Shown piece after piece: positions 1,057-38,747 of a stretch of 40,796 nt of DNA (positions are counted from its first letter, which is position 1; each line of letters starts with the position of its first letter). The translations under genes were made by a program, and so were the position numbers. The notes beneath the pieces are model-generated. The model was not told where the DNA came from. It saw only the letters and a program-made list of their open reading frames with translations, and made no database searches. The DNA comes from a virus, in the IMG/VR virus record IMGVR_UViG_3300043419_000382, positions 1 to 40,796 of that record; one strand, written 5' to 3'.

Positions 1057-2587
1057 TATTATTGTTCTAGGAGGCGGAAGTGCAGGATGGTTAACAGCGT
1101 TGTTCATCCAGCGTAACTGGCCAGATACACACGTTACTGTAGTAGAGAATCCCAAACAGCCTCCTATCATTGCAGGTGAAAGTGGAACTACTACATTTGT
1201 TGGTTTATTAAGACATCTCAAGATAGATTCCGACGACTTTATTCGTAAAGTTAATGCTACTCCTAAGCTAGGAGGAAAGTTTGAAAACTGGACAGGTGTT
1301 GGATCAAAGTTTATACACTGTTTGCAAACCGATTATGCACCATGGCTAGACGGATGGACTGAATATGTTAACAGTGCTCCTACAGAAGAGCTAAATCTAG
1401 GAACAATGTATTCAATACTTAATGCAGAACAAGAAAAAGACGTATATCTTAAAACACTCTTAGCAAATGATATTCCCCTTGCAAAAGCATTCTATGCTAA
1501 TCAGTTCATTGAAACAAATAAAGTTCCGTTTGGTGCAACTAGTGAACTGCCGTGTGTAGCAATGTGGCATTTTGAAAGCAGGGCTGCTGCTGCATATTTT
1601 AAAAACATTGGCCTAGCTAGAAACATAACCTTAGTAGAAGGTGAATATCAGCAATCACATCAGGATCTCAATGGAAATATTACCAGTATACAGTTAGATC
1701 AAGATCAACTTCTAAAAGGAGATTGGTTCTTTGACTGTTCTGGATTTGCAAGATTGCTTATGGGTAAAGTTTTAGAAGAACCTGTTGTTGATTATACTAA
1801 TTATTTTCCGGCAAGAGCAGTAGTTGCTTGGTGGGACTCGCCCGAATATACCACTACAACAAACGCTAATGCTATGAAGTTTGGTTGGTCTTGGAATATT
1901 AATCTAAGACATCGTTCTGGAAATGGTTACATTTATGATCCCGACCATATCAATTTAGATCAAGCTATTCAAGAAGCTGAAAAGTTCTATAACAAGAAAA
2001 TTGATCCTATTGCAAACTTTCAGTTTACTCCCGGCATGATGAAAAAAGCATGGAGGAATAATGTTATTGCAATCGGCCTTAGCAGCGGATTTTTAGAGCC
2101 TCTAGAAGCTAATGGTGTAGCTGTGATTATTGAGAGTCTTTATAGTTTACAAGACCACTGGAAACCTTTTGAATCTCGTATTGACCCAGAAAGGGTTGAT
2201 AGATTTAATGAGCGGGTTTGGAATATTACTGAAGACATCAAAGATTTTCTAGCTCTTCATTATAGAGGAAAACGATCAGATACTGATTTTTGGAAGAGTC
2301 ACATGTACGATTCTAATCGAATACCTGCAACATTGTCCGAAAAGTTATTGGCTTGGAAGAGTTATTATCTAGGACAAAAAGGAGAACCGTGGCTATATGG
2401 CTATAGCCCAACCGCATGGCTTATGGTTCTACAGGGATTAAGAGTATTTGATCACACCGTATTGAGAAATATACACAAAAATGCTCTAACCGTAGGTCAA
2501 AAACTACTAAATATCAACGAATCCCGATATAAGGAACTTGTTACTCCATTTTGGACTGTAGACGAGTGGATTCATAGAACAGCATAA
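1034..2587 (+). CDS. Flavin-dependent tryptophan-halogenase-like protein (complete)
   Basis: A 517-aa protein, about the usual family length. The N terminus carries the FAD-binding GGGSAG at residues 13-18, then AGESGTTTF (48-56), which corresponds to the GExT region of halogenases. NATPK follows, with Lys78 at the position of the catalytic lysine that forms the chloramine or guides HOCl. DCSGF is at 234-238 and FLEPLEAN at 353-360. The WxWxIP signature is altered to GWSWNIN (284-290), with Asn in place of Pro. It starts inside the end of the upstream halogenase, so the two probably form one transcription unit. Three halogenase-like proteins occur in this window; this one and the partial one share the EPLEA variant, whereas the minus-strand copy has EPLES. 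The substrate (free Trp, peptide or other indole) cannot be read from sequence. Confidence 0.88.
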   Translation: MKYKSNSNIIVLGGGSAGWLTALFIQRNWPDTHVTVVENPKQPPIIAGESGTTTFVGLLRHLKIDSDDFIRKVNATPKLGGKFENWTGVGSKFIHCLQTDYAPWLDGWTEYVNSAPTEELNLGTMYSILNAEQEKDVYLKTLLANDIPLAKAFYANQFIETNKVPFGATSELPCVAMWHFESRAAAAYFKNIGLARNITLVEGEYQQSHQDLNGNITSIQLDQDQLLKGDWFFDCSGFARLLMGKVLEEPVVDYTNYFPARAVVAWWDSPEYTTTTNANAMKFGWSWNINLRHRSGNGYIYDPDHINLDQAIQEAEKFYNKKIDPIANFQFTPGMMKKAWRNNVIAIGLSSGFLEPLEANGVAVIIESLYSLQDHWKPFESRIDPERVDRFNERVWNITEDIKDFLALHYRGKRSDTDFWKSHMYDSNRIPATLSEKLLAWKSYYLGQKGEPWLYGYSPTAWLMVLQGLRVFDHTVLRNIHKNALTVGQKLLNINESRYKELVTPFWTVDEWIHRTA

Positions 2588-2610: not shown

Positions 2611-2775
2611 ATGGCAACTTATAAAATGATTCTTAGAAAACCTGAGCCGCCAAATTCAATGGCAATCATGGAAGATACTTGTGAAGCAAAAAACATGGAC
2701 GAAGCTCGCAAGATCTTCGAAGAGCGTCACGGTAATCAAAGAAACGTAGCTGGCCCTATCAAAGTCGCTGGTTAA
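2611..2775 (+). CDS. Small protein of unknown function, 54 aa
   Basis: ATG at 2611, preceded at good spacing by TAAGGAG (2598-2604), opens a 54-codon frame ending with TAA at 2773-2775. The protein is charged, begins MATYKMILRKPEPP, has one Cys and no Trp, and its middle (EAKNMDEARKIFEERHG) looks like a single amphipathic helix. No signal peptide or membrane segment is seen. It has its own NATAAATA late promoter and runs head-on into the oxygenase gene at 2759-3397, the two 3' ends overlapping by 17 bp. The family is not recognised. Because it lacks Trp, it is not an obvious peptide substrate for the adjacent halogenases. The strong ribosome site and promoter make it a probable real gene. Confidence 0.7.
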   Translation: MATYKMILRKPEPPNSMAIMEDTCEAKNMDEARKIFEERHGNQRNVAGPIKVAG

Positions 2776-3397
2776 ATCGTTTCATCAGATCGTTAACATC
2801 TGATATCTGTTTCAACTCATTCTGAACTGCCTGGCTAGTGTATTCAAAAGGCAAGCCCAAACAAGGTCTTGTATCCCACTTTAGCCAGGCATCGTCGCCT
2901 TTAGCATCTACATACTGCAAAAACGCTTGTATTTGCCTTTTAGCAGGCAAAGGATCTCGCCAATGTTCATGCAGACGACCACTGTATATTGCAATATCAC
3001 CGACTTCTAGATCAATGCAGTGTGTTACTCCATTAGAGTTTTTTACATAAAGTGGCCAATCACAGTCTTTTTCTAAGCAAACAGAAACAGTAACTTCGGA
3101 ACTAGGGCGATCAACATGCTTTTGTAATTCCGATCCCTGATAATAAATTCTAGCATACGAGTACGTCGGAAACAAGGTCATGCCTACAGCCTTTTCAACT
3201 TGGGGTTGTACCCAGACACTCAGCGTTTCCATCATCAGAGGACTGTATCTGGCAAATGTATTATCACATAAGTCTGCTAGATTGGCATTAGGATATAACT
3301 GTTTGCAAACCGTTTCCATCATCTCGAACTCTAATGCAATAAATTTACAGAGTTCGGACGAAACTGCATTTTTTATTATTAAAAAATCTTCTTTCAT
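2759..3397 (-). CDS. 2OG-Fe(II) dioxygenase, prolyl-hydroxylase-like
   Basis: A 212-aa protein with the double-stranded beta-helix pattern of 2-oxoglutarate/Fe(II) dioxygenases. YYQGSELQKHVDRP places the metal-binding HxD at His94/Asp96. The distal His is His143 or His145 in GRLHEHWRD, and Lys153/Arg154 sit about ten residues later, where prolyl 4-hydroxylases bind the 2OG carboxylate. Expected chemistry is hydroxylation of a side chain or small molecule using O2 and 2OG; the substrate is unknown. It is the last gene of the long minus-strand operon, with a 4-bp ATGA overlap with its upstream neighbour and a 17-bp convergent overlap with the 54-aa gene. Three cysteines fall in or near the N-terminal third (residues 17, 31, 44). 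Confidence 0.85.
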   Translation of the reverse strand: MKEDFLIIKNAVSSELCKFIALEFEMMETVCKQLYPNANLADLCDNTFARYSPLMMETLSVWVQPQVEKAVGMTLFPTYSYARIYYQGSELQKHVDRPSSEVTVSVCLEKDCDWPLYVKNSNGVTHCIDLEVGDIAIYSGRLHEHWRDPLPAKRQIQAFLQYVDAKGDDAWLKWDTRPCLGLPFEYTSQAVQNELKQISDVNDLMKRFNQRL

Positions 3398-3951
3398 GTT
3401 AGTGGCATTAAACTCATATTGACAAATGGTCTTTCAACATAATTTGATATTAATGGACTATTTGGTATAGTATGTATATCAAATCCTATAGTAGTTCTAA
3501 CACCATCGTAAGGTTCTACAGCTTCAACCTTATGTCGTCTATTCCCCTCTGCAAAATATATTTGTCCAGGTACATTTGAAATCTCATAGTTTTCAAACAT
3601 AGTTTTAGTATTCTTAGGATCTATAGAAATATACCCATGATAATCGTATGAATGATCATGCCAATCTAATATTTTTAAATCCTCATATTTGATGTAGTTG
3701 ATCCATGCTTCGAACCATAAAGGTCTCTCATTTCCTAACTCCGATCGAACCAAGTCTCTCATCTCTTTATAGATAGAATAGAATATTGTCGAAGGTGCTG
3801 TTAAAGCAAAAATATTGTACTTAGAATAAGACCAAGTTGAATCACTTTCAGGAAATAGTTTTTTAAAGTTACTATGTGCAATATCTAAATCTGCTTTTAT
3901 TAGATCGAGATTTTCTACAATGGTACTGCTTTGATATAATCTATAAGTCAT
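3394..3951 (-). CDS. 2OG-Fe(II) oxygenase-like protein with a His-rich metal motif
   Basis: A 185-aa protein. The core reads WHDHSYDYHGYISI (about 97-110), then PGQIYFAEGNRRHKV with His140, and Arg152 in VRTTIGFDI. The spacing, with Arg 12 residues after the distal His, fits a 2OG dioxygenase jelly roll. The first metal site is HDH (His98, Asp99, His100) rather than plain HxD, so which residues bind iron is uncertain. It resembles putative phage 2OG oxygenases in layout, but family assignment is weaker than for its neighbours. Both ends overlap neighbours by 4 bp, consistent with coupled translation in the operon. Substrate unknown. Confidence 0.7.
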   Translation of the reverse strand: MTYRLYQSSTIVENLDLIKADLDIAHSNFKKLFPESDSTWSYSKYNIFALTAPSTIFYSIYKEMRDLVRSELGNERPLWFEAWINYIKYEDLKILDWHDHSYDYHGYISIDPKNTKTMFENYEISNVPGQIYFAEGNRRHKVEAVEPYDGVRTTIGFDIHTIPNSPLISNYVERPFVNMSLMPLT

Positions 3952-4556
3952 AGTAACATATTTCCAAGATTAATATTAATCACACATCGGTATTTGTTGT
4001 GTTGGACAGGACTAGAACTATGATAGTATTTTCCCGGAAACACCAATAACTTTCCACGTTTTGGAGTTACTCTATGCCGAATCGTAAAGTTGCCTGACTG
4101 GATTTTTATAACATCGTCAATACCACTATCATATGTTTCGTTTACTTCGTTGAATATAACAGTATCGCCATCAGAGTCATTAACATAATAGATAGCGTTC
4201 CAATGCGGGAAGAAACTATCTATGTGAGGCATATGGTATTCCTGCGTTGATCTACAGTTGGGTAGGGTCATGTTAGCCCGCATCCTAAATAATCTGTTAA
4301 AGGGTACTTCTGCGCGACTAGTGATGCTGAGTACTAGGGGATATATCAAGTTAAAGAAGTTGCTAACAGGCTTACTATTCTCAAAGAAGAAATGATTAAA
4401 CCCTGCATGATTGTTCGGATCATCTATAAAACAATCATCACCCGATACCATATTTTTATTAAACAACCAAGGAAACTCAAAACTAGTCATGAGTTCTTCT
4501 AGATGATTTTGATAATCTACAGGGATTATGTTTTCTATTTCAATAATATCTTTCAT
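3948..4556 (-). CDS. 2OG-Fe(II) dioxygenase-like protein
   Basis: A 202-aa protein. The start is placed at the ATG at 4556, because this gives a 4-bp ATGA overlap with the upstream stop and aligns with its paralog at 6491-7069. A longer frame to 4637 would overlap the upstream gene by 85 bp. The metal motif is MPHIDSF (His111, Asp113), with the distal His179 in KYYHSSSP and Arg190 for 2OG. The strands between read NAIYYVNDSDGDTVIFNE and GKLLVFPG, a typical prolyl-hydroxylase-like core. The order EFPW, LFRMR, HxD, YYVND.DGDTVIF, KLL.F.G..YH is shared with 6491-7069, which points to duplication inside the operon. All residues needed for catalysis appear to be present; the substrate is unknown. 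Confidence 0.83.
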   Translation of the reverse strand: MKDIIEIENIIPVDYQNHLEELMTSFEFPWLFNKNMVSGDDCFIDDPNNHAGFNHFFFENSKPVSNFFNLIYPLVLSITSRAEVPFNRLFRMRANMTLPNCRSTQEYHMPHIDSFFPHWNAIYYVNDSDGDTVIFNEVNETYDSGIDDVIKIQSGNFTIRHRVTPKRGKLLVFPGKYYHSSSPVQHNKYRCVININLGNMLL

Positions 4557-5179
4557 TTTTTCTTTCTTAGATTTCCGGATATCGATATACGATACTCGTC
4601 CGAACTGGTAAAAGGGTATACCATATGTTGAAGACATGAGGGAAATAAGAAGATTTGTCCCTCATATAGTTTATCTACTGGAAATTCTACTTCTCTTATT
4701 TCTCCAAACATGTTATTATAGAAAAAAGAAAACATTCCTGCTCTCGGACTGTTTGATTCAACACTGCTCTGTTGATTTATTTCTTCTAAAATATAGTAAG
4801 GAACTTGAATCCATAATGCAAAACTATAACTACCATCATGGGCATGGATAGGATTAAACTCATTTTTCTTTTGAAAGTTAACCCAATAGTTATATAACTC
4901 TAGATTATTTGAACTCAGATCTTTAGTAGTTCGTGTAATGTCCCAGTTCGAAGTATAATCTTTGCATAGACCTAATAGATACTGTTCTAGAGCAGCTTGA
5001 TTTTTACCTAACTTATATTCTTTTTCAATATTACCTGCAAGATTGTAGTTTATTTTATTTTCTGTGGAAGATAGATCTAACGATAGTACTTCTTCTTTTA
5101 GATTTTCAAAAAGTTCTTTAGGAACAGTATCTCTAATAAATCCAAAGTTGGCAAAGTTTCCAAATAATGCTGTTGTCAT
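4553..5179 (-). CDS. Putative 2OG-Fe(II) oxygenase (PF13759-like)
   Basis: A 208-aa protein. YNYWVNFQKKNEFNPIHAHDGS (about 96-117) is the hallmark W.N......N..H.H..S segment of the putative 2OG-Fe(II) oxygenase family common in marine phages. The distal half has FLFPSCLQHMVYPF (His185) and EYRISISGNL (Arg197, 12 residues later). His112 and His114 are the first-site candidates; Asp115 follows directly. An insertion between the two halves (about 128-165, including a Ser-rich stretch) makes it differ from the compact relatives at 7750-8373 and 9167-9775. It overlaps both neighbours by 4 bp. Substrate unknown. Confidence 0.78.
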   Translation of the reverse strand: MTTALFGNFANFGFIRDTVPKELFENLKEEVLSLDLSSTENKINYNLAGNIEKEYKLGKNQAALEQYLLGLCKDYTSNWDITRTTKDLSSNNLELYNYWVNFQKKNEFNPIHAHDGSYSFALWIQVPYYILEEINQQSSVESNSPRAGMFSFFYNNMFGEIREVEFPVDKLYEGQIFLFPSCLQHMVYPFTSSDEYRISISGNLRKKK

Positions 5180-5790
5180 ACTGCTATTCCAAAAAAGTTA
5201 ATGGTTAGTCTTGCAGTATCTTTTGAGTTACCAAAAAATCTATCAACGCTATGCCAGTGATGCGGATCAAACATAACACATCTATTGTATTCATTTTCAA
5301 CAATCATATCTTGTTTGAAAAAAGAACGTTGTTGTTCTTTATATCTAACATAAGATTGTCTGTCTTCGGGCAACGCATTTAACTCTTCATGAAAAACTTT
5401 TTTAAAATCTTCAGTGAATGGTAAAACTTGATTATAGAATATTGTTCCAGAATTATCTGGAGGCGAAGGATTAAGATAAACAACTCCTGCAATATTATAA
5501 TGTGGTTCATCCTGATGCAACCAGCCCAAAGTGTATGTTTCGTCTACTAGTGTAAAGTTTGCTTTTAAAAACTGAAAAGATGTACAACCATGTACATGCT
5601 TGATTAATTTCGATGCAATAGATTGAAATAGATTGGCATTGATCTCATTTAATAATTTTGATTGTTCACCCGGCCACGGAGCTAACTCGTCTCTCGAAAA
5701 CTCTTGTCTAAGAGCAAAGTGCCTCCATAGATCGGGAGATTCTAAAAAGTTATCAACTACTTTGATCGGCATGGGAAATATTTTTTTCAT
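5176..5790 (-). CDS. 2OG-Fe(II) oxygenase-like protein (DUF6445-like), copy 1
   Basis: A 204-aa protein closely related to its upstream neighbour at 5787-6494. Shared signposts are a VVDNF/MVFDNF opening followed by DPDLWR-type residues, W.G...KLL.EIN, DETY..GW, HxD, NIAGV.YLNP, and FDP..WHS..FFG....RLT..FF. The predicted iron ligands are His92 and Asp94 (WLHQDEP) plus His180 in FDPHHWHSVDRFFG; Arg194 lies in the 2OG-binding place. It resembles the family I know as DUF6445, which carries the same fold, though I could not check this. Start ATG overlaps the upstream stop (ATGA). Tandem duplication with the neighbour is clear at the protein level. Confidence 0.78.
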   Translation of the reverse strand: MKKIFPMPIKVVDNFLESPDLWRHFALRQEFSRDELAPWPGEQSKLLNEINANLFQSIASKLIKHVHGCTSFQFLKANFTLVDETYTLGWLHQDEPHYNIAGVVYLNPSPPDNSGTIFYNQVLPFTEDFKKVFHEELNALPEDRQSYVRYKEQQRSFFKQDMIVENEYNRCVMFDPHHWHSVDRFFGNSKDTARLTINFFGIAV

Positions 5791-6494
5791 TTTGCTTTAA
5801 TAAAAAATACCTGTGTTAGTCTAGATTCAGCATGTGTTGAGCCAAAAAACTTTTCAGCGCTGTGCCAGTTACGCGGATCAAAAATAATACAACGATTATA
5901 AACACTTTCAATAGTTGTTGTTTTCTTAAAAGACTGAACCTGCTCTTCTCTGTACTTAGAGTACTGTTCTCGTTCTTCAGGAGATGCTACTAAAACATCA
6001 TTCATAAACATTTCAGTGTAACGCTCACCGTTAAAATCGTTCTGATCTTGATATATCACAGTTCCTGCACCTATCGGAGCATCTGGATTAAGATAGATAA
6101 CTCCTGCAATGTTTAGTTTTGGATCGTCATCATGAACCCAACCCCGTCCATAAGTTTCGTCGATAACTTGAAATCCTGTTTGTAGTTCTACAAACTCTGT
6201 GAATCCGTAGGGTTCCATTATTGCCAGCAACTTACGCATTGTTACACGAAATATTTCTTGATTTATTTCATGCAATAGCTTAGTTCTTAGTCCTGGCCAA
6301 CTCCCTCGATCGCCCTTAAAAAACTCTTGACTCAATGCAAACTCTCTCCAAAGATCAGGATCCTCATAGAAGTTGTCAAATACCATTGTAGGTATGTAGG
6401 GATTGAGAAATCTATTTTTGATTCCAGAGTTTTTAATAAACTCCGAACTTCTAGAATTCATTTTTATGAGTTGATCTATATGTTTAGTAATCAT
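5787..6494 (-). CDS. 2OG-Fe(II) oxygenase-like protein (DUF6445-like), copy 2
   Basis: A 235-aa paralog of the next gene, with about 30 extra residues at the N terminus before NPYIPTMVFDNFYEDPDLWR. Predicted iron ligands are His121 and Asp123 (WVHDDDP) and His211 (FDPRNWHSAEKFFG), with Arg225 for 2OG. The central segment about 150-195 is variable relative to the copy. The 4-bp ATGA overlap with the upstream gene supports the chosen start, although an internal Met at 12 or 37 could also serve. Likely a hydroxylase of unknown target. Confidence 0.78.
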   Translation of the reverse strand: MITKHIDQLIKMNSRSSEFIKNSGIKNRFLNPYIPTMVFDNFYEDPDLWREFALSQEFFKGDRGSWPGLRTKLLHEINQEIFRVTMRKLLAIMEPYGFTEFVELQTGFQVIDETYGRGWVHDDDPKLNIAGVIYLNPDAPIGAGTVIYQDQNDFNGERYTEMFMNDVLVASPEEREQYSKYREEQVQSFKKTTTIESVYNRCIIFDPRNWHSAEKFFGSTHAESRLTQVFFIKAK

Positions 6495-7069
6495 CTTGGT
6501 TTACCTACAAAGTTAATAGTTAATGCCAATCTCTTTGTAAACATTTTTGGACAGGTACTTGCATGATAATGCCAACCATTAAACAACAAAAGTTTTCCTT
6601 GATCGGGCATACTCTTGTGCATAACGTGATACTTTTCAGCAGCTTCTATTTCATGAAAAATAACAGTCTCTCCATCGGACTTATTAATATAGTATACAGC
6701 AGTGTAGTGTTCTTGGTCAAAGTCTCTATGCGGATTGTTGTATTTGTAAGGCTGACTAGGTAACAGATACTTTGTGTTTAATAAAAACCCCAGACGCATA
6801 CGTAACATCTGATGTATTTCAAAACCTGTTTTTTCTACCATTGCATCAACTAATGGTTTGAAAAAATCAGCATAAGGATTCGTTTCATTATTAGGATGAT
6901 ATATTAGATTAACAAATCCCGGAGTTGAATTATGAGATTCGTTTGCACGTTCAAATGTAGTATCTTCTAAAAAATGCCAAGGAAACTCAACACGAGTTAC
7001 TAGATTATAAATCTCATCTTGATATTTTTTATCAACAATGTCGTGTATTTCAATAGGTTTAAATGTCAT
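6491..7069 (-). CDS. 2OG-Fe(II) dioxygenase-like protein
   Basis: A 192-aa paralog of 3948-4556. NNPHRDFDQEHYTAVYYIN holds the HxD pair His114/Asp116. GKLLLFNGWHYHAST supplies the distal His (His167 or His169), and Arg180 is the probable 2OG anchor. DGETVIFHE corresponds to DGDTVIFNE of its paralog. AGGAT (about 8 bases before ATG) serves as ribosome site, and the ATG lies 11 bp inside the end of the upstream cupin-like gene. Expected role is hydroxylation of a protein or small-molecule target; nothing in the sequence names it. Confidence 0.82.
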   Translation of the reverse strand: MTFKPIEIHDIVDKKYQDEIYNLVTRVEFPWHFLEDTTFERANESHNSTPGFVNLIYHPNNETNPYADFFKPLVDAMVEKTGFEIHQMLRMRLGFLLNTKYLLPSQPYKYNNPHRDFDQEHYTAVYYINKSDGETVIFHEIEAAEKYHVMHKSMPDQGKLLLFNGWHYHASTCPKMFTKRLALTINFVGKPR

Positions 7070-7778
7070 GATTTATCCTGTAATAGTTTCTATCAATTTG
7101 ATGATCGTGTGGATCAGTAGCAAATCTATTCCAACAAGGAATACTCATGCTTAATCTTTTTCCTTTTGGTTCAGCAACATGATACATTCTCGAAGGGATG
7201 TACAATGCATCTCCAGGCTCCAGATCAACTTCAATGGCAAGATCTAAATCCTTATGATCTAGTTGACCATTCATTGTACCTGTTCTATAGAGGTATGAAA
7301 TCCTGTTGTTATATATTTTCCAACGAGTAGTGCCTTCAACTTGAATAATGAAGTTACAAGGATAATCGTCGTGAATTCCGAAAGATTTTGCATCTGTTAA
7401 ACCACAATAAACATGTATGGCTGCATTTACATTAAACATTGTTTCAAATATTTTTAATAAATGCATGGTCTTTTCATTATAAAAACCATAGTTCATAATA
7501 ATCAAACTATTGCCTTGATGAAACTTTTCAAATAAAAATCCTTTGTCTTGTACGGCTCTATCCCATATCCATGCTTTTTTACTTCTTGGAATATCAACTT
7601 TCTTATTATACGGATCAATCATTTCGAAGTCATAGAGATAGGGATTATTCAAACATTTCTCTACATCATTCCAGGTTAATAGGTCACTAGGATTTTCTAA
7701 TAGCTTCTTAAAATAATGAGGCTTGTCATTGATTAGTAAGTTTGTTTCGTTAAGTATTCTTTGGCCAATATCGTTCAT
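7059..7778 (-). CDS. JmjC/cupin-like oxygenase
   Basis: A 239-aa protein from the ATG at 7778, chosen because AGGA stands at good spacing before it. The frame extends to 7850, but that start would overlap the upstream gene by 101 bp and lacks a convincing ribosome site. The core GIHDDYPCNFIIQVEGTTRWKIY (His136, Asp138) followed by LEPGDALYIPSRMYHVAEP (His200) is the HxD...H plan of JmjC and cupin-like hydroxylases such as ROXA/NO66 (protein histidyl or arginyl hydroxylases). This is a different subfamily from the other oxygenases in the operon. In bacteria, cupin-like proteins of this type are often neighbours of tryptophan halogenases, as here. The target is unknown; a protein side chain is the family-based guess. 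Confidence 0.8.
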   Translation of the reverse strand: MNDIGQRILNETNLLINDKPHYFKKLLENPSDLLTWNDVEKCLNNPYLYDFEMIDPYNKKVDIPRSKKAWIWDRAVQDKGFLFEKFHQGNSLIIMNYGFYNEKTMHLLKIFETMFNVNAAIHVYCGLTDAKSFGIHDDYPCNFIIQVEGTTRWKIYNNRISYLYRTGTMNGQLDHKDLDLAIEVDLEPGDALYIPSRMYHVAEPKGKRLSMSIPCWNRFATDPHDHQIDRNYYRINHDI

Positions 7779-8373
7779 CGTCTGTCCTAATGAGTTTAAT
7801 GTTAAAAGAAATACTGATTCTATTTTCGTCGGATTCGTTTCTTTCCACACCGTGTGGCAACCATCCAGGAAACATTATTAGTTTACCTGTTTTTGGTTTA
7901 AATGTTATTGCACTAGCACTGATAGGGGTATATCTATCCACTACTGCTTGAGAAGCTATGATAAAATCTTGGCTGTAACTTTTATAAAATGTAATATTTC
8001 CCTGCCCTTCGGATGCTTTTATATAGTAAGCTCCAGACACGAATGAGTTATCGTGTGTATGAACAGAGTTAGTATGTCCTCGTTCATTAATATTGATCCA
8101 AAAGTTTTCCATCAATATAAAACACAGATCTTCTCTGTAACCAAAATCTCTAACAGCATTTTCTGCCTGTGCTTTTATTTTAGATTCTAATACTACCATC
8201 TCTGGATGTGTTCCTGGTCGAAAGTCTTTACTTTGCCAACCACCCTGATTGCTTAATCGTCGACCAACAGGATCTTCGTCTCTTAGCCTATAGGCCAGTT
8301 TTTCTAAATCAGCATTTTCTAAATCAGTATCTTCCCACCACAACGGTGTAGGGAAATAGAATTCCATATTCAT
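7750..8373 (-). CDS. Putative 2OG-Fe(II) oxygenase (PF13759-like)
   Basis: A 207-aa protein and the clearest member of the putative 2OG-Fe(II) oxygenase family here. It opens with FPTPLWW, then has GGWQSKDF (44-51), FWININERGHTNSVHTHDNSF (His105, His107), SGAYYIKA, GKLIMFPGWLPHGVERN (His174) and ENRISISFNI (Arg185). This order and length are standard for the family, which is frequent in marine T4-like phages. Its ATG overlaps the upstream stop by 4 bp. Function is inferred only from fold: Fe/2OG-dependent oxidation of an unidentified substrate. Confidence 0.87.
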   Translation of the reverse strand: MNMEFYFPTPLWWEDTDLENADLEKLAYRLRDEDPVGRRLSNQGGWQSKDFRPGTHPEMVVLESKIKAQAENAVRDFGYREDLCFILMENFWININERGHTNSVHTHDNSFVSGAYYIKASEGQGNITFYKSYSQDFIIASQAVVDRYTPISASAITFKPKTGKLIMFPGWLPHGVERNESDENRISISFNIKLIRTDDERYWPKNT

Positions 8374-9170
8374 CTAAATAAATCTCTCATTGTTTTATTT
8401 TTCAGTACTTCGTGACTAAATGCAAATGCATGACTCCATCTAAAGTCTATGTTTTTAGATATGCTGGCTAAATGACAGACATTAGCTTGATACATTGTCA
8501 TAGTACCTATCTTGTTAGGAATAGCTCCAACCATTTCAAACCCCCATCGAGCAAGTTCTTCATCTGACATATTAAACCAAGCATCTGCTCTAGTAGGCGT
8601 TTCTGCAATAGCACGCCATTCTTCAAACATTTTATGGTTAGTATCTACTTGAAAATCGTAAATATAATCTTTGATTTCACCGTGATACTTATAGAGTTTG
8701 GTACTGCTATCTGCAATATTGTGGTCCGTGAACCACATGTTAGCAACTAAACCATGAGCATAATCAATATGAGGGATCCTCCAACAACTAATAGGTCTAG
8801 CTCTTTCTTTAAAGTAGACGTTCCCCCATTCATGTATCTGCGGATCATAAGTGTCTTGTCTAATATTCTTAAGATAAAAATCTCTGATCAAGAAACAAAT
8901 ATTTTTTGAAACCCACTCGGGCACATGAATAGTATCGAAAGGATTCGGATCAAAGTTATCGGGGTGGTTGTTATCTTTTTGTATAGGAAAACTTTTAATT
9001 AGATTTTTAAAAGTATCTAGGTGGGCAGCGTCAAACGGTAGCTCTGTTGTCCAAAAGCCTATACCATAATCTAATGAAGTGTACTCAGTATTCCACTGAT
9101 CCAACGATTTGATTTTTATAACCTTATCGAAGTTATTTGCATCAGGATAGCAGAATTTAAAATCATTCAT
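8370..9170 (-). CDS. 2OG-Fe(II) oxygenase-like protein, 266 aa
   Basis: Longer than the neighbours. CWRIPHIDYAHGLVANMWF contains the HxD pair His134/Asp136. GTMTMYQANVCHLASIS supplies His233, and Arg244 in DFRWSHAFAF sits 11 residues later, as expected for 2OG binding. An insertion of about 70 residues between the metal half-sites (about 150-220), rich in acidic and aromatic residues, could form a lid or substrate-binding part. The N-terminal 120 residues are not recognised. Four-base overlaps with both neighbours show operon coupling. Assignment rests on the spacing of the putative ligands, so it is less firm than for 7750-8373. Confidence 0.72.
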   Translation of the reverse strand: MNDFKFCYPDANNFDKVIKIKSLDQWNTEYTSLDYGIGFWTTELPFDAAHLDTFKNLIKSFPIQKDNNHPDNFDPNPFDTIHVPEWVSKNICFLIRDFYLKNIRQDTYDPQIHEWGNVYFKERARPISCWRIPHIDYAHGLVANMWFTDHNIADSSTKLYKYHGEIKDYIYDFQVDTNHKMFEEWRAIAETPTRADAWFNMSDEELARWGFEMVGAIPNKIGTMTMYQANVCHLASISKNIDFRWSHAFAFSHEVLKNKTMRDLFR

Positions 9171-9775
9171 TTTATATTAAATGTCATTACCAATCTTTCT
9201 TGATCGGTATTATTAGGCTGCACGCGGTGCCGCATCCATCCAGGAAAGATTAATACATCATTAGTTTCTACAGGTATTTCTCTATAAAGAGTTTCGTCGG
9301 GCTCCATAGGAAAAGTATTCATATGGTATTCTAACGGATCTTTGAACTCAATGTTTCCAGAACCAGGCGGACATTTTAGATAGCAACTAACTACAAATGT
9401 AGAATAGTTATGATTATGTTCTGAAGTTAAACCTTGTGATAGGTGTTTATTACACCAAGATTGTGTTACTTCAGATTGCCTATATTTAAAACGATATGTA
9501 TCTTTTAAATGCTCTAGTTTAAGTCCTAGCCAGTTTTGAAAATCAGACAACTCTTCCCACCCATGTGGTTGTAGATGCTGATCTACAGATACTGTAGAAA
9601 CAGCCTCGCCGTATTCTAACTTTGAATTTATTTCTACTAATGAAAATAGGTGTTCTATTTTTGGGTCTAGACTTTTTAGGTCAAAGTTATACCTGTATTT
9701 CCACACTAGAGGGGGAAATAAAAATATTCCGCCATCATTAAGCTGAAGCAACAGCAGTTTCTCCGTGTAGCTCAA
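9167..9775 (-). CDS. Putative 2OG-Fe(II) oxygenase (PF13759-like), non-ATG start
   Basis: About 202 aa. The body matches the putative 2OG-Fe(II) oxygenase family: FPPLVWKY near the start, SEHNHNYSTFVVSCYL (His120, His122), GSGNIEF, DVLIFPGWMRHRVQPNN (His183) and ERLVMTFNI (Arg194). No ATG lies near the N terminus. The listed start is TTG at 9775; a second TTG at 9751 has GGAG at better spacing, so the true protein may be 8 residues shorter. Either start lies inside the end of the upstream 82-aa gene, suggesting coupled translation. Substrate unknown. Confidence 0.8.
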   Translation of the reverse strand: MSYTEKLLLLQLNDGGIFLFPPLVWKYRYNFDLKSLDPKIEHLFSLVEINSKLEYGEAVSTVSVDQHLQPHGWEELSDFQNWLGLKLEHLKDTYRFKYRQSEVTQSWCNKHLSQGLTSEHNHNYSTFVVSCYLKCPPGSGNIEFKDPLEYHMNTFPMEPDETLYREIPVETNDVLIFPGWMRHRVQPNNTDQERLVMTFNIK

Positions 9776-9986
9776 TAGCTAACGTTAATCCCATAACAAC
9801 ACCTTCCATCTTGAGAACATCCGTTGCAAGATCCTGTCTCTTGGCAAAATCAATAGATGTAATGCCATATGGGTTTAGTTTTACATTGGCAAAATCCTCT
9901 TCAAGTTTAGCCAACTCTGCTTCTTTGGTAGTTTTTTCAGAAGACACTTGAGATAGTGTATTTTTTAGTTGTTCGATGTAGTTCAT
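9738..9986 (-). CDS. Small helical protein of unknown function, 82 aa
   Basis: The ATG at 9986 is preceded by GAGG within AAAGAGGATTAAA. Residues 1-35 are rich in Glu, Lys and Leu with heptad-like spacing, suggesting a short coiled coil. NPYGITSIDF (38-47) breaks it and a second helical part follows (KRQDLATDVLKMEGVVMGLTLAIE). No Trp, Cys or signal peptide. It lies 1 bp downstream of the 263-aa unknown gene and overlaps the next oxygenase. It may be an assembly or adaptor protein, but there is no direct evidence. Family not recognised. Confidence 0.75.
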   Translation of the reverse strand: MNYIEQLKNTLSQVSSEKTTKEAELAKLEEDFANVKLNPYGITSIDFAKRQDLATDVLKMEGVVMGLTLAIELHGETAVASA

Positions 9987-9987
9987 T

Positions 9988-10779
9988 TTAATCCTCTTTA
10001 TTTTTGTTAAGTATTCTTATAGACCTAGTCAATCTTTCTGACAGACTATCGCTATGAAGGAATACACAGTTAGCAGCATAGTTAAATGCCCTCTCTCTTT
10101 CTAGATCTTCAGATCTAGCATTTTCTATAGAAACATCATAAGTTGAAAGACTCAGATGTTTTCTCGAAACTGGTATTAGTTGACACAGAGGAGTTCCTGC
10201 TTTTATCAGTGTCTTTCCCTCTAGTACTTTCCAGAATAACTGAATGTTTAGTACATGTGCATATTTTGTATCTAAGAATCCCGTAGCCGATATAAATCTA
10301 CTTTCATTGTTATACGACACCGGCATCTGCAATAACAATACATCGTCAGATGCTTCCACACGCCAGGGAGTTTCTAACTTGATTACAGTTTTTAATGTTG
10401 TATCTGGATCATCAAGTAATGGTTCTACTTGAGATTTTGTATGAGACGAAACATATGCATCACGGCCGGAACTGATTTTACTAAATCTATACGGTTCCAT
10501 CCATTCAACCGACGTGCCGTCGCCGTTGGTTTGAATAATAAAATCAGCAGGTGCTGTTACAATCCATCCCGTAGATACAAGTTTTTTAATACCCGGGCAG
10601 TTTTTAGAACTTAGAGTCTCTGGTTTGTCTCCTACCTGATCATCGGCTAAGAAGTTTCTTTTAACTGCTGCTGATTTAACAATAGGAAATATTTCGTTGA
10701 CACCGGGTTCAAGAGAGTAGAATCTTATATAAGGCTTCTTACTCCATCTTGAAAATAACTTTTTAAATAGCGTGATCAT
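9988..10779 (-). CDS. Unknown beta-rich protein between halogenase and oxygenases, 263 aa
   Basis: After a basic N terminus (MITLFKKLFSRWSKK) the protein has PYIRFYSLEPGV, KNCPGIKKLVSTGWIVTAP (about 59-77), TVIKLETPWRV, DVLLLQMPVSYN, a block ending LNIQLFWKV, and IKAGTPLCQLIPV before a helical C-terminal tail. The alternating hydrophobic pattern and the AGTPLCQLIPV element suggest a beta sandwich. From memory the order recalls DUF6065-type proteins, also of unknown role, but I could not confirm this. No metal triad or nucleotide motif is visible. It overlaps the halogenase end by 17 bp, so it is co-transcribed and perhaps a partner or substrate carrier of that enzyme (inference). Confidence 0.7.
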   Translation of the reverse strand: MITLFKKLFSRWSKKPYIRFYSLEPGVNEIFPIVKSAAVKRNFLADDQVGDKPETLSSKNCPGIKKLVSTGWIVTAPADFIIQTNGDGTSVEWMEPYRFSKISSGRDAYVSSHTKSQVEPLLDDPDTTLKTVIKLETPWRVEASDDVLLLQMPVSYNNESRFISATGFLDTKYAHVLNIQLFWKVLEGKTLIKAGTPLCQLIPVSRKHLSLSTYDVSIENARSEDLERERAFNYAANCVFLHSDSLSERLTRSIRILNKNKED

Positions 10780-12379
10780 CTTTTCCGCCGTAGATATTAT
10801 CTCTTAAAAATTCATAATGGCTAGGTAATGTTTTTACATAATCAACGATGAAATCTCTGTATTCTTCATATCTACGTTTAGTATAGTTAATCTCTTCTTC
10901 CTTTTGAGACTTCTTTAATCGATCTCCACTAAAGTATATTAGTTCTTTAGTAGAAATAGATTTAACTCCCATGCCGGCGGCAATAAACATGTTGCCGATA
11001 TATTCACTAACATAACTTTGATTGCCTACTAGGTTACCCATTAGGTTAGGATATTGTGCCTGTATCAACATTTGATCTCCCATCATTTCAGGGCAGTACT
11101 CGTTAATTTGGGTACACCATCTCCAATAAGGAGTATCTGTTCTCTTTGATAATGCATAGTGTTGAGATACAAAGTCTCTAAACTTAAGAACATCGTATTC
11201 TACTGCAAAGTTAAAACCTTCAATCTCAGTTCTTGTAAGGTAACCTTCTCTACGATTTAAGTTTTCAACCAGCTTGATAATGTTTTCATGTGTAGTTAGC
11301 AAGCCTGTTGATTCTAATGGCTCGACAAATCCGTAGCTAAGTCCAACACCTACAACATTGTTGATCCATGCACGACGTCTACGTCCGTGTCTAATATTCA
11401 CCATAAACATTTCTGCTTTTTCTGCAATCTCCGGACTGTGCTTTTCGGCAAGATGTTTTCTAAACTCTCGCTGTGCATCTTCTGGTGTTACAAATCTTGA
11501 TGAAAATACATAACCTGTGCCAATACGATTCCATAAAGGAATATTCCAAACCCAACCATTGTCTAATGCATGGCAGTCTGTGACATTATGCATTTCACGC
11601 TCTCGATCGATATAGGGTAATCTACATGCCCATGCCATATCATTTGCTAGATATTTGTCAAAGGGTTTGAACTCTGATCCCATCCAACCTTCTAATAGAA
11701 TAGACTTAAATCCAGTACAGTCTACCCATAAATCAGATTTGAGAGTAGAACCATCAGACATAAAAATCTCAGCAATGCTTCCAGATTGGTCTTTTTTATA
11801 GCTATGAACATCACCGATAAGATGCTTCACACCATTTGGTAATGCAATTTTTTCTTTAAGATATTGACCAAATAGTTGTGCATCTAAATGGTAGGCAGTA
11901 TCAAATGCAAAGTCGTAGTTTCTTAATATATTTTTTTCGTCTTTTGTCTGCTTGTTATATTTTGCAAGAAAGGTGTTGCCAGTAACGTAAAACTCAGCAA
12001 ATGTGTTTGGTGAATATTCTTCAGGATAAAGTGTAGCTAACTCACTCCAGGCCTGTGTGCCGTGTGGTTTATCAGTAAAGTCTAATCCTGCACTAAATGG
12101 ATACTCAAAGAAAGATCCATCAGGTTCTCTGAAGTTTGTAAATCGAATAGAGTTTTTATAGGTTGCATTACAAGCGGCCATCCAATCTTCATCTCTGAGA
12201 TCTAACAATCTTAGAAACTTATTGATATGTCCTAGTGTACTTTCACCAACACCAACAGTTCCAACTTTTGAAGATTCAACCAATGTAATATCGAGATGTG
12301 GGCATAATTTAGATAATGCTGCTGCTGTCATCCAACCAGATGACCCGCCACCTACGATTGTTACTGTTTTTACTTGCAT
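10763..12379 (-). CDS. Flavin-dependent tryptophan-halogenase-like protein, first gene of the operon
   Basis: A 538-aa protein, the most canonical of the three halogenases here. It has GGGSSG at 10-15 (FAD Rossmann motif), VGVGEST at 42-48, CNATYK with Lys75 at the catalytic-lysine position, DCTGF at 220-224, the full GWVWNIP signature at 275-281, and FVEPLESTG at 351-359, the active-site motif with Glu356/Ser357. It would use FADH2 from a separate reductase, none of which is seen in this window, to chlorinate or brominate an indole or aromatic group. AAGGAC serves as ribosome site, and an exact TATAAATA late promoter ends 25 bp before the ATG, so this gene leads the 14-gene operon. It follows the adhesin genes after a terminator. 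Confidence 0.93.
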   Translation of the reverse strand: MQVKTVTIVGGGSSGWMTAAALSKLCPHLDITLVESSKVGTVGVGESTLGHINKFLRLLDLRDEDWMAACNATYKNSIRFTNFREPDGSFFEYPFSAGLDFTDKPHGTQAWSELATLYPEEYSPNTFAEFYVTGNTFLAKYNKQTKDEKNILRNYDFAFDTAYHLDAQLFGQYLKEKIALPNGVKHLIGDVHSYKKDQSGSIAEIFMSDGSTLKSDLWVDCTGFKSILLEGWMGSEFKPFDKYLANDMAWACRLPYIDREREMHNVTDCHALDNGWVWNIPLWNRIGTGYVFSSRFVTPEDAQREFRKHLAEKHSPEIAEKAEMFMVNIRHGRRRRAWINNVVGVGLSYGFVEPLESTGLLTTHENIIKLVENLNRREGYLTRTEIEGFNFAVEYDVLKFRDFVSQHYALSKRTDTPYWRWCTQINEYCPEMMGDQMLIQAQYPNLMGNLVGNQSYVSEYIGNMFIAAGMGVKSISTKELIYFSGDRLKKSQKEEEINYTKRRYEEYRDFIVDYVKTLPSHYEFLRDNIYGGKDDHAI

Positions 12380-12404
12380 GAAATGTCCTTTATAAAGTGC
12401 CAGT

Positions 12405-12412
12405 TATTTATA
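12405..12412 (-). promoter_or_regulatory. T4-type late promoter, TATAAATA, leading the halogenase-oxygenase operon
   Basis: A perfect match to the T4 late promoter octamer on the minus strand, between the terminator at 12438-12459 and the halogenase ATG (12379). The position is right for a short leader carrying the AAGGAC ribosome site. It implies expression together with virion genes. Confidence 0.7.
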
Positions 12413-12437: not shown

Positions 12438-12459
12438 AAAGGCACCCTAAAGTGCCTTT
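12438..12459 (-). terminator. Rho-independent terminator after the 165-aa gene
   Basis: Read on the minus strand, an 8-bp stem (AAAGGCAC / GTGCCTTT) with a 6-base loop runs into a T-tract. A second perfect inverted repeat, TTTGCTCTAGAGCAAA (12461-12476), lies between it and the stop codon of the 165-aa gene. The hairpin is followed by T residues on both strands, so it could act in both directions. It separates the fibre genes from the halogenase-oxygenase operon. Confidence 0.8.
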
Positions 12460-12481: not shown

Positions 12482-12979
12482 TTAGGATCCTTGAAATCCT
12501 CTCCATCCGCGATATCTCTTCCATGCTGGAAGTTCTGTAGTTGAAGGAATCGGTGTTCTGTTCTCACTAGGTTCTTCGGTACCCAATCTAGCCAACTGCT
12601 CCTCGGGAGTAGTTAAATTTGCTGCTTCTGTAGACTTAGGAATAATAGCCTTGATTGCCGAAACGTGCTGAAACCATTCTCCATCTTGGCTAATAGTACC
12701 GTTGGTTCTTATTTCATGAAACAACATGTCTAACTGTTGTCCGTATTCCCCGTATGCTACCTTACGTGCAACAGAGTTATTGGTAAACGGACCGTCTCTT
12801 TCAACCCAAATCATAGTTCGTTGACTCGGGCTATATTCTAATGTCCAATCTAGCGTGATTTCGTCAGGAGCATCAACCCACTGAATCGTGGCATCGGGGC
12901 CATTATAAATGTCATAATCTTGACCTGGTTCAACAATCTGTTGTACCCAACCTTGATATCCAATAAGTGCTTTTTTCAT
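12482..12979 (-). CDS. Phage virion-associated protein, Trp-rich, 165 aa
   Basis: Starts MKKALIGYQGWVQQIVEPG, an opening I associate with a conserved hypothetical protein of T4-like marine phages found near fibre genes. The middle (VAYGEYGQQLDMLFHEI, about 74-90, then EWFQHVSAIKA) resembles the short helical YGxQLDxLxH pattern of tail-fibre or tail assembly chaperones. Seven Trp residues (11, 34, 45, 58, 102, 153, 159) are many for its size. The last 15 residues are basic and aromatic (PAWKRYRGWRGFQGS). AGGAGA precedes the ATG and a late promoter overlaps the end of the upstream fibre gene. A chaperone or fibre-tip part is a guess from context. Confidence 0.7.
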   Translation of the reverse strand: MKKALIGYQGWVQQIVEPGQDYDIYNGPDATIQWVDAPDEITLDWTLEYSPSQRTMIWVERDGPFTNNSVARKVAYGEYGQQLDMLFHEIRTNGTISQDGEWFQHVSAIKAIIPKSTEAANLTTPEEQLARLGTEEPSENRTPIPSTTELPAWKRYRGWRGFQGS

Positions 12980-12998: not shown

Positions 12999-13853
12999 TT
13001 ATTTATATTCTTCAACTAATACGATTCCCGGACGACCATCAGATCCTCTATGTCCAGTAAAATATCCACCAGTACCGCCTGTACCTGGTGCAGCGTGTCC
13101 TTGGTGATTATGACTAAAATGTCCACCTTGTGGGTGTCCACTGGGGGCCGGTCCTCCGAAGTGACTAGTGCCACCTGGTCCAAAACTATGATGATGTGAT
13201 CCGCCCGATCCTGTGTGTATATTTAAATCGCCGCCTGAACCTGACCCACTTACACCACCAGAGTGCTGATTTTGTCTATTAGCACCATGTCCGCCACTGG
13301 CTGAACAGTATGGTCCAAATGATGCTGAATCTCCATTGCCGCCTGCGCTGGAGTAGTATGTACCGCTACCGCCGCCACCTACGTATACAGATACCGAGCT
13401 GATACTAGTAACATCTAAAATTCTTTCGCTGTATCCGCCTGCGCCGCCCGACTCTCCGTGCCCAGAAGCACCGCCTCCGGCGCCTTGACATTTAATTCTT
13501 ACATATCTAACGCCACTTGGTTTATTCCAAGTACCGCTACTTGTAAAAACACTCATACCGGAAAATCCAGCTACTGAATATTCTAAACCATTATTGGCAC
13601 TGTTTGTTCTTAGTACAGTATTTGCAGATCCGATAGAAGATAAACCAGTTCCGCCTCTTGATACTGGGATTGAGCCAGTTACTCTAGTTCCTGCAATGTT
13701 GACTGATGCCGATGCTAACTTTGTTGAAGTAACTGCACCAGCAGTAATATCTGCACTAGGAATGGATCTATCAGCAATCTGTGTTGTGGTAATAGAACCA
13801 TCAACAAAAGATGTGCCTGTTAGATTTTTTAATGCTTGGTAGTTAAACGCCAT
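12999..13853 (-). CDS. Glycine-rich tail fibre/adhesin, paralog 1 of 3
   Basis: A 284-aa protein. The N-terminal 60 residues carry short fibre-type repeats (ITTTQIADRSIPSADITAGA, TSTKLASASV). PVSRGGTGLSS follows, a sequence common in phage fibres just before the distal domain. From FTSSGTWNKPSGVRY (about 103-117, with the protein's only Trp at 109) the rest is a Gly/His/Ser-rich domain with GGGG runs, ending GHRGSDGRPGIVLVEEYK. Gly-rich tips of this kind bind host receptors in T4-like adhesins (for example gp38 of some T-even phages); receptor binding here is inference. AGGGAAA precedes the ATG. It is one of three tandem copies that differ most in the N-terminal repeats and in the middle of the Gly-rich tip. 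Confidence 0.85.
   Translation of the reverse strand: MAFNYQALKNLTGTSFVDGSITTTQIADRSIPSADITAGAVTSTKLASASVNIAGTRVTGSIPVSRGGTGLSSIGSANTVLRTNSANNGLEYSVAGFSGMSVFTSSGTWNKPSGVRYVRIKCQGAGGGASGHGESGGAGGYSERILDVTSISSVSVYVGGGGSGTYYSSAGGNGDSASFGPYCSASGGHGANRQNQHSGGVSGSGSGGDLNIHTGSGGSHHHSFGPGGTSHFGGPAPSGHPQGGHFSHNHQGHAAPGTGGTGGYFTGHRGSDGRPGIVLVEEYK
13000..13007 (-). promoter_or_regulatory. T4-type late promoter, TATAAATA
   Basis: An exact TATAAATA on the minus strand formed by the last codons and stop of the upstream fibre gene, 20 bp before the ATG of the 165-aa gene, with AGGAGA between. Confidence 0.6.
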
Positions 13854-13864
13854 GTTTTTCCCTA

Positions 13865-14722
13865 TTAATAATATTCTGTAATAACAACAATTCCGGGGCG
13901 TCCATCTGAACCTCTGTGTCCACTAAAGTAACCACTTGTGCCACCTGTACCGGGTGCCGAATGACCTTGGTGATTATGACTAAAATGGCCACCCTGCGGA
14001 TGTCCACTTGGGGCTGCGCCACCAAAATATGTAGAACCGCCCATACCCGATGAGCGTTGCTCGTGGCCGCCACCTGCGCCGCCATATAAATTTAGATCGC
14101 CGCCTGATCCAACACCAGGCAATCCACCATTATGATTGTTGTGTCGGTTACATCCGTGACCTCCACCAGCTGACACATATGGTCCGAAGCTTGAACTATT
14201 TCCGTTGCCGCCTGCATTATTATAGTATGTTCCGCCGCCGCCGCCACCGATTGTGACGGATGCAGAGCTAATGCCTGTTACATCAATAATCTTTTCTGCG
14301 TATCCGCCAGCTGCGCCCGATTCGCCATGGCCACCGCCACCGCCACCGGCTCCCTGAACTTGTACTTTGATATATCGAACATTTGATGGTCTAGACCATG
14401 TGCCGTTACTAGTAAATACAACCATTCTGTATATACCACTAGGTTGAAATTCTAAAGCATTATTTGAAGAGTTGGTAGCCAATACCCTAGATGCTCCGGA
14501 AAACCCGCTTAATCCAGTACCACCGCGTGCAAAAGGAACCGATCCTGTAACTGTTGAAGTACCGAGATCAATCGAACTAGTTGCTAGTTCGCTTTCTGTG
14601 ATTGTAGAATTTGAAAGTTTTGCAGTAGTGATTGCATTGGTATTTGCATCATTTCCTAGTACTGTTGAGTTAACAAGAGAACTAGAAGTTAAATTCTTTA
14701 ATGCTTGATAGTTAAATGCCAT
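13865..14722 (-). CDS. Glycine-rich tail fibre/adhesin, paralog 2 of 3
   Basis: A 285-aa protein with the same plan: MAFNYQALKNLT opening, fibre repeats, PFARGGTGLSG, then FTSNGTWSRPSNVRY with a single Trp at 109, and a Gly-rich tip with a GGGGGG run near 163. The distal segment SGHPQGGHFSHNHQGH is identical to paralog 1. The preceding part (GCNRHNNHNGGLPGVGSGG) differs from both other copies, which share GANRQNQHSGGVSG. This patchwork suggests recombination among the copies. The intergenic gap is 11 bp and holds AGGG as ribosome site. Confidence 0.85.
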   Translation of the reverse strand: MAFNYQALKNLTSSSLVNSTVLGNDANTNAITTAKLSNSTITESELATSSIDLGTSTVTGSVPFARGGTGLSGFSGASRVLATNSSNNALEFQPSGIYRMVVFTSNGTWSRPSNVRYIKVQVQGAGGGGGGHGESGAAGGYAEKIIDVTGISSASVTIGGGGGGTYYNNAGGNGNSSSFGPYVSAGGGHGCNRHNNHNGGLPGVGSGGDLNLYGGAGGGHEQRSSGMGGSTYFGGAAPSGHPQGGHFSHNHQGHSAPGTGGTSGYFSGHRGSDGRPGIVVITEYY

Positions 14723-23950: not shown

Positions 23951-23969
23951 TTATATACTCCGTATACGT

Positions 23970-23977
23970 TATTTATC
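23970..23977 (-). promoter_or_regulatory. T4-type late promoter, GATAAATA
   Basis: Minus-strand NATAAATA in the 36-bp gap, 20 bp before the ATG of the 2515-aa fibre gene, followed by CGGAG. Confidence 0.6.
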
Positions 23978-23986
23978 ACCCAAATA

Positions 23987-38739: not shown

Positions 38740-38747
38740 TATTTATC
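38740..38747 (-). promoter_or_regulatory. T4-type late promoter, GATAAATA
   Basis: Minus-strand NATAAATA overlapping the stop codon of the glycosyltransferase gene and about 65 bp before the ATG of the 127-aa gene. Confidence 0.6.

Follow-up and report, generated by a model that had tools for sequence, protein, structure and literature searches.

The window examined here, the full 40,796 nt of the IMG/VR virus record IMGVR_UViG_3300043419_000382, itself a fragment, carries on its minus strand an operon of 14 genes encoding a flavin-dependent halogenase (hal1), eleven non-haem iron oxygenase-like proteins (ox1–ox10 and a JmjC protein) and two further proteins (u263 and u82). Upstream lie a gene for a chaperone-like protein (u165) and three tandem genes for glycine-rich fibre-tip adhesins. 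We think it reasonably probable that the operon is a late cassette for tailoring the receptor-binding tips of the phage itself, in which the adhesins would be the substrate. The upstream neighbours are:

14737..15588 (-), glycine-rich fibre-tip adhesin 1, probable substrate (AlphaFold model with a predicted local distance difference test, pLDDT, of 74.7)
13865..14722 (-), glycine-rich fibre-tip adhesin 2, probable substrate (PF21722, 9.3e-11)
12999..13853 (-), glycine-rich fibre-tip adhesin 3, probable substrate (PF21722, 8.2e-10; phrog_863, 1.6e-54)
12482..12979 (-), u165, 165-aa chaperone-like protein (phrog_1787), served by a separate late promoter at 13007-13000

The constancy of this neighbourhood ties the operon to the adhesins. 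The order of three adhesins, u165, halogenase, u263, u82, ox1–3, JmjC, ox4–10 and convergent halogenases recurs in dozens of IMG/VR contigs, where some apparent gaps in the gene maps are artefacts of an overlap filter. Searching IMG/VR by adhesin alone returned 79 contigs: u165 and a halogenase are present in all 68 that extend clearly beyond the third adhesin, and the remaining 11 end at that point. When 50,697 phage records were searched by tblastn, the adhesin matched 10 of them (about seven distinct isolates), with a halogenase adjacent in every case. The module, shorter or longer, is found in 11 isolates (Syn9, Syn10, S-CREM1, P-TIM40, S-RIM44, Sf-FP1, Sf-CH3, Sf-FR1, S-WAM1, S-SZBM1 and P-RSM6), where the adhesins are followed by a u165-like gene, the halogenase and then the oxygenases; for Syn9 and Sf-CH3 this arrangement was judged from match coordinates. 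Gene order is kept down to about 50–60% protein identity. Around a constant adhesin–chaperone–halogenase core there are as few as 3 oxygenases (Sf-FR1) and as many as 11 (this phage), and independent modifications therefore fit better than a linear pathway.

The adhesins belong to the glycine-rich tip fold (gp24/gp38-like), as indicated by the PF21722 matches and by the model of adhesin 1, whose best PDB match is the cyanophage Pam3 fibre 7ypx (E 1.9e-8, template modelling score 0.51–0.57). In Pam3, this glycine-rich tip is considered to be what recognises the host receptor, and a neighbouring chaperone takes part in its folding (PMC9608196); u165 sits beside the adhesins as the fibre chaperone gp25 sits beside gp24 (PMC9608196). 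Fibre tips of the Pam3 type have been described as hypervariable (PMC9608196), whereas in the adhesins studied here conservation is highest in the glycine-rich domain, with the loops not placed on a confident model. Among 93 adhesins, positions conserved at 90% or more make up 42% of the glycine-rich domain versus 11–14% of the N-terminal regions; glycines account for part of this, the figure being 32% when only non-glycine positions are counted. Nearly invariant residues are E132, Y139, N190, H195, N209, H218, H239, P240, Q241 and H249. Pam3 gp24–gp25 and S16 gp38 thus resemble the window in tip fold and in the small chaperone-like gene next to it, but differ in that their tips are described as hypervariable and no modifying enzymes are reported, whereas the conserved domain of this phage is flanked by the cassette. 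Giant fibre proteins are encoded at 16403-29452, just upstream of the adhesins, and one of them (2515 aa, 16403-23950, minus strand) contains six CBM_5_12 carbohydrate-binding stretches.

The operon and the elements ahead of it comprise:

12438..12459 (-), terminator-like hairpin between the operon and the u165 gene, just before the TATAAATA promoter
12405..12412 (-), T4-type late promoter TATAAATA, a perfect match about 25 nt ahead of the hal1 ATG
10763..12379 (-), hal1, VirX1-type flavin-dependent halogenase, 538 aa (Pfam Trp_halogenase, 7.8e-105)
9988..10779 (-), u263, 263-aa protein with a predicted dUTPase-like fold (phrog_7084, 2.9e-48)
9738..9986 (-), u82, 82-aa protein with a KLNPYGIT.IDF motif, conserved across 47 sequences
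9167..9775 (-), ox1, PF13759-type, HxH..H (triad 51/51)
8370..9170 (-), ox2, phrog_1644-type, HxD..H (triad 53/53)
7750..8373 (-), ox3, TIGR02466/PF13759, HxH..H (triad 50/50; PDB 2rg4, 3.3e-12)
7059..7778 (-), JmjC_2 (PF08007) oxygenase (6.9e-16; ATG at 7778, open reading frame, ORF, open to 7850)
6491..7069 (-), ox4, P4H-like (PF13640), HxD..H (triad 50/50), a paralogue of ox8
5787..6494 (-), ox5, DUF6445-type, HxD..H (triad 46/51), a paralogue of ox6 with 45% identity
5176..5790 (-), ox6, DUF6445-type, triad intact in this phage and kept in 13/18 sequences
4553..5179 (-), ox7, PF13759-type, HxH..H (triad 13/13)
3948..4559 (-), ox8, P4H-like, HxD..H (HxD 48/48; distal His 41/48, the others being gaps)
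3394..3951 (-), ox9, phrog_2696 oxygenase-like, HxH..H (triad 33/33)
2759..3397 (-), ox10, phrog_2954 oxygenase-like (labelled 'ferrochelatase'), HxD..H (triad 32/32)

The 14 ORFs run from 12379 down to 2759 and abut or overlap with a largest gap of 1 bp, as a first-pass annotation of this DNA had described. That annotation had counted eight 4-bp overlaps; with the listed start codons there are seven exact 4-bp junctions, the remaining overlaps being at least 7 bp, and the true start codons are uncertain for the genes at 9167-9775 and 7059-7850. Its span of 2759-12412 is right at 2759, but coding stops at 12379, and 12412 is the 5′ end of the TATAAATA promoter. Exact copies of this motif number two in the window, below chance expectation, and both precede genes of the module (hal1 and the 165-aa gene at 12979). 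Among 54 distinct intergenic regions of relatives, it occurs at the matching pre-halogenase position in 18 and before the 165-aa gene in 30, against a background of 0.058 per kb. Because the position of this perfect T4 late motif shortly upstream of the first gene recurs across relatives, late transcription of the 14-gene unit, which had also been proposed earlier, is well supported as a prediction. Terminator-like hairpins are no more numerous in the region than expected by chance.

Full-length homology and active-site motifs identify hal1 as a VirX1-type halogenase. It matches VirX1 (PDB 6qgm) over residues 2-532 (1.2e-199) and contains GGGSSG, corresponding to the GxGxxG motif that binds flavin adenine dinucleotide, and GWVWNIP (WxWxIP motif); the catalytic Lys (of the TxK motif) and Glu (in EPLE) are conserved in an alignment of 135 halogenases. 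The Syn10 gene adjoining u263 equals the VirX1 of 6qgm except for the first residue, and by sequence the operon halogenase is therefore the VirX1 orthologue at that position. Among viral halogenases, VirX1 is described as the first to be characterised, and it is reported to have a large, open active site and to accept many small aromatics (PMC8407142). Halogenating activity is thus known for the Syn10 orthologue (PMC8407142), and that of hal1 is predicted from homology. Two more halogenase genes, which fall outside the span of the first-pass annotation and were overlooked there, occupy 1-2587 on the plus strand:

1034..2587 (+), hal2, second Trp halogenase (2.9e-89), convergent with the operon, its position and orientation kept in relatives
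1..1056 (+), hal3, third Trp halogenase by Pfam match, its 5′ part lost at the window edge

Where WxWxIP is expected, hal2 reads WSWNIN. Ten long related records contain two to five halogenases each, mostly four; in the 265-kb contig G002, one of the five is located elsewhere.

Profile searches (Pfam and PHROG) and iron triads bear out the gene content read earlier, namely a halogenase, ten 2-oxoglutarate (2OG)-Fe(II)-like proteins, one JmjC protein, and 263-aa and 82-aa proteins. Seven oxygenases and the JmjC protein have Pfam matches (PF13759, PF13640, DUF6445 and JmjC_2), while ox2, ox9 and ox10 have no significant Pfam match but match phage families (PHROGs) and carry the triad. PHROG labels such as ferrochelatase, endonuclease V and minor coat protein clash with the oxygenase motifs of several cassette proteins and look like misannotations. 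The first-pass annotation had named a lack of metal-binding residues in most of these proteins as grounds for abandoning its view; at the sequence level, all 11 carry an iron triad, invariant or nearly so in ten families. Seven (ox2, ox4, ox5, ox6, ox8, ox10 and the JmjC protein) have the HxD/E..H triad of 2OG-Fe(II) enzymes. The other four (ox1, ox3, ox7 and ox9) depart from it with an invariant HxH..H (147/147 sequences), also seen on alignment in the solved PF13759 relative 2rg4. These are probably non-haem iron enzymes, possibly with a three-histidine iron site, and '2OG-Fe(II)' is therefore a family label here and not a proven co-substrate. In five relatives (L098, L047, L058, L137 and L126), ox6 has lost triad residues with its ORF retained; such a protein is possibly a non-catalytic partner of ox5.

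The JmjC_2 protein scores 58.4 bits against a profile cut-off of 22, its IHxD motif and distal His are conserved, and its nearest PDB chains by sequence are those of the histidyl hydroxylase NO66. JmjC relatives of the NO66 type hydroxylate histidine in proteins, and some JmjC_2 relatives act on ribosomal proteins.

Cassette genes are under purifying selection, with ratios of non-synonymous to synonymous substitution (dN/dS) of about 0.01–0.1 in the three closest pairs and values reaching about 0.24 among more distant ones, in which dS is near saturation. Profile comparison separates the oxygenases into at least six groups without clear mutual similarity, and the row is therefore not one gene copied ten times; the only clearly related sets are ox5/ox6, ox4/ox8 and ox1/ox3/ox7 (with ox9 weakly). 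Recent tandem duplication as the origin of all oxygenases is thereby ruled out.

The AlphaFold model of u263 has a mean pLDDT of 69.5, and its top PDB matches are nearly all dUTPases (E ~1e-4), suggesting a dUTPase-like fold at weak model confidence. Two jumbo-lineage contigs have a second, divergent copy of u263 past the convergent halogenases (L153, 7601-8431; L152, 12847-13677). In another contig (L033), a u263 homologue lies among radical-SAM-like, QueD-like and glycosyltransferase-like genes, names given from reading the sequences. A bacterial source of u263 was considered and rejected: its close matches in bacterial and archaeal assemblies are phage-like contigs carrying the module, and the others are distant lone homologues. 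The two contigs concerned, NZ_RMVE01000006 (filed as Nonlabens; L159) and NHGE01000052 (filed as a Euryarchaeota metagenome-assembled genome; L160), are likely phage contigs within those assemblies, and the gene order of the former resembles that of P-TIM40. A PADLOC search of seven proteins for defence genes gave no match.

From these observations we propose the following scheme. The three adhesins would be made and then held by u165. Conserved side chains of the glycine-rich tip region, among them the invariant His, Asn, Gln, Glu and Tyr residues, would next be hydroxylated by as many as eleven non-haem iron oxygenases and halogenated by the VirX1-type halogenases, all ahead of tip attachment to the fibre. 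Every oxygenase would have a target residue of its own, allowing single genes to be gained or lost, and u263 and u82 may serve as accessory or scaffold subunits. The modified tip would tune host binding. A protein such as the adhesin suits these enzymes as a type of substrate, because the JmjC_2 protein is nearest to a protein histidyl hydroxylase and the VirX1 active site is large and open. More tentatively, several T4-superfamily lineages may diversify a conserved receptor-binding tip chemically, with about a dozen hydroxylases, up to four or five halogenases and three paralogous adhesins, rather than by sequence. If the adhesins are indeed the substrate, several enzymes together would oxidise and halogenate a phage receptor-binding protein, which would bear on host recognition and make the cassette a source of enzymes for protein tailoring. 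The linkage offers a concrete, testable substrate for VirX1 and the cyanophage 2OG oxygenases.

Several observations weigh against the adhesins as substrate. Confidence in the adhesin 1 model is only moderate, and published VirX1 assays used small molecules (review PMC8407142). The contig search used exact peptides of the window's protein, which biases its 68 of 68 towards close relatives, although the tblastn search of isolates agrees with it. Adhesin residues that track the presence of ox7 (positions 228, 230 and 238) are not clearly above the background of other cassette genes. Components also occur apart from the module: u263 is present without the cassette in eight contigs (L033–L040), S-B64 has a lone VirX1-like halogenase among replication genes, in Sf-CH11 such a halogenase adjoins a different tail protein, and Syn30 and S-P4 have divergent JmjC genes within replication regions. 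Lastly, the adjacency of adhesins and cassette could stem from a shared insertion hot spot beside the tail-fibre genes.

Four other explanations can be set against adhesin tailoring. Oxygenases and halogenases co-occur in natural-product clusters, and the cassette might build a halogenated, multiply hydroxylated small molecule (an antibiotic, toxin or signal) during infection. Published proposals run along these lines, with antibiotic protection suggested for PrnA-like genes (PMC9964418, PMC2984593) and a halogenated metabolite for S-SSM6a (PMC7824862), and the taste of VirX1 for small aromatics agrees with them (PMC8407142). We consider this unlikely: the block contains no scaffold-forming, ligase or transport gene, a count of 3–11 oxygenases beside the same core is unlike a fixed pathway, and the linkage to fibre-tip genes is strict. 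For the same reasons, of the two targets offered by the first-pass annotation, a virion protein is best supported through that linkage to three glycine-rich adhesins, and a host-derived compound has little in its favour.

The enzymes might instead act on another protein, such as the giant fibre proteins or a host ribosomal or surface protein. Ribosomal-protein hydroxylases among the JmjC_2 relatives, the CBM_5_12-bearing fibre proteins directly upstream, and the JmjC and halogenase homologues away from adhesins would all suit this idea, which we also rate as improbable, given that it is the adhesins and a u165-like gene that stay beside the cassette even in distant isolates.

Much less plausible still is a role as auxiliary metabolic genes changing host metabolism, for instance through 2-oxoglutarate consumption acting on NtcA nitrogen signalling, or a role in DNA repair. 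A host-metabolic role has been proposed for cyanophage 2OG oxygenases (PMC3037559, PMC9602691), but the late promoter lies within the structural region, the scheme gives the halogenase no role, consuming one metabolite needs no eleven distinct conserved families, and four of the oxygenases are HxH..H proteins with unproven 2OG use. That the genes share no substrate and merely collected as cargo at an insertion hot spot beside tail genes, as the different enzymes in a comparable region of S-SSM7 might suggest, is very hard to reconcile with an order conserved to about 50–60% identity, abutting or overlapping genes and strong purifying selection.

The gene cluster itself is already present in sequenced cyanophages, and the new point is its linkage to adhesins. 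The row of eleven oxygenases, regarded as unusual in the first-pass annotation, is real but not unique, its order recurring in Syn9/Syn10 and S-CREM1. These phages share with the window the glycine-rich proteins, a u165-like gene, a halogenase (55–63% identical to hal1), u263, u82, ox1, ox2, further oxygenases, JmjC, ox4, ox5, ox8 and ox10; the window differs in its jumbo-lineage phage, three adhesins, extra ox6/ox7 and convergent downstream halogenases. We found no description of their cassette as one functional unit in the accessible literature, and none that ties it to adhesins, most subscription papers being outside the search. Cyanophage oxygenases are numerous and have been read as host-metabolism or repair genes without tested function (PMC3037559, PMC9602691, PMC9964418), halogenases as antibiotic genes (PMC2984593, PMC9964418), and that of S-SSM6a has been assigned to a metabolite or polysaccharide cluster (PMC7824862).

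The S-SSM7/S-SSM6a cluster (PMC7824862) is similar in its halogenase, ox5- and ox8-like oxygenases and upstream tandem glycine-/cysteine-rich proteins of about 265 aa, but carbamoyltransferase and sugar-nucleotide genes dominate it, and JmjC, u263 and u165-like genes had no match in the stretch examined. In S-SSM7 (L156, 1-3801), the tandem glycine-/cysteine-rich proteins are followed by an ox5-like gene and different tailoring enzymes, perhaps forming a parallel adhesin-modification island. S-SCSM1 (PMC9602691) likewise encodes many oxygenases (24 genes) of overlapping Pfam families, but by ORF numbers its loci are scattered over the genome, they are read as host-metabolism genes, and a halogenase is unmentioned.

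The first-pass annotation had called the virus a T4-like phage. It does belong to the T4 superfamily, but its capsid protein places it in a jumbo lineage and not among typical marine T4-like phages: the protein shares 75.5% identity with its counterpart in the 469-kb phage Phosso and 68–72% with those of other jumbo phages. A typical cyanomyovirus origin is ruled out accordingly. Capsid proteins of cassette-bearing contigs (84–278 kb) are mostly 83–93% identical to the window's, and G002 gave no capsid match in the sequence examined. As a clue to the host, psbA was absent from the seven records examined.

Two minor features remain. Between hal2 and the convergent operon end lies an unlisted 54-aa ORF (2611-2775, plus strand) with AGGAG preceding its ATG; it has no Pfam match and shares 17 bp with the 3′ end of ox10. 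Near the capsid gene, a glycosyltransferase family 25 gene (PF01755, 8.6e-17; 38743-39411, minus strand) is found in one of ten related records.

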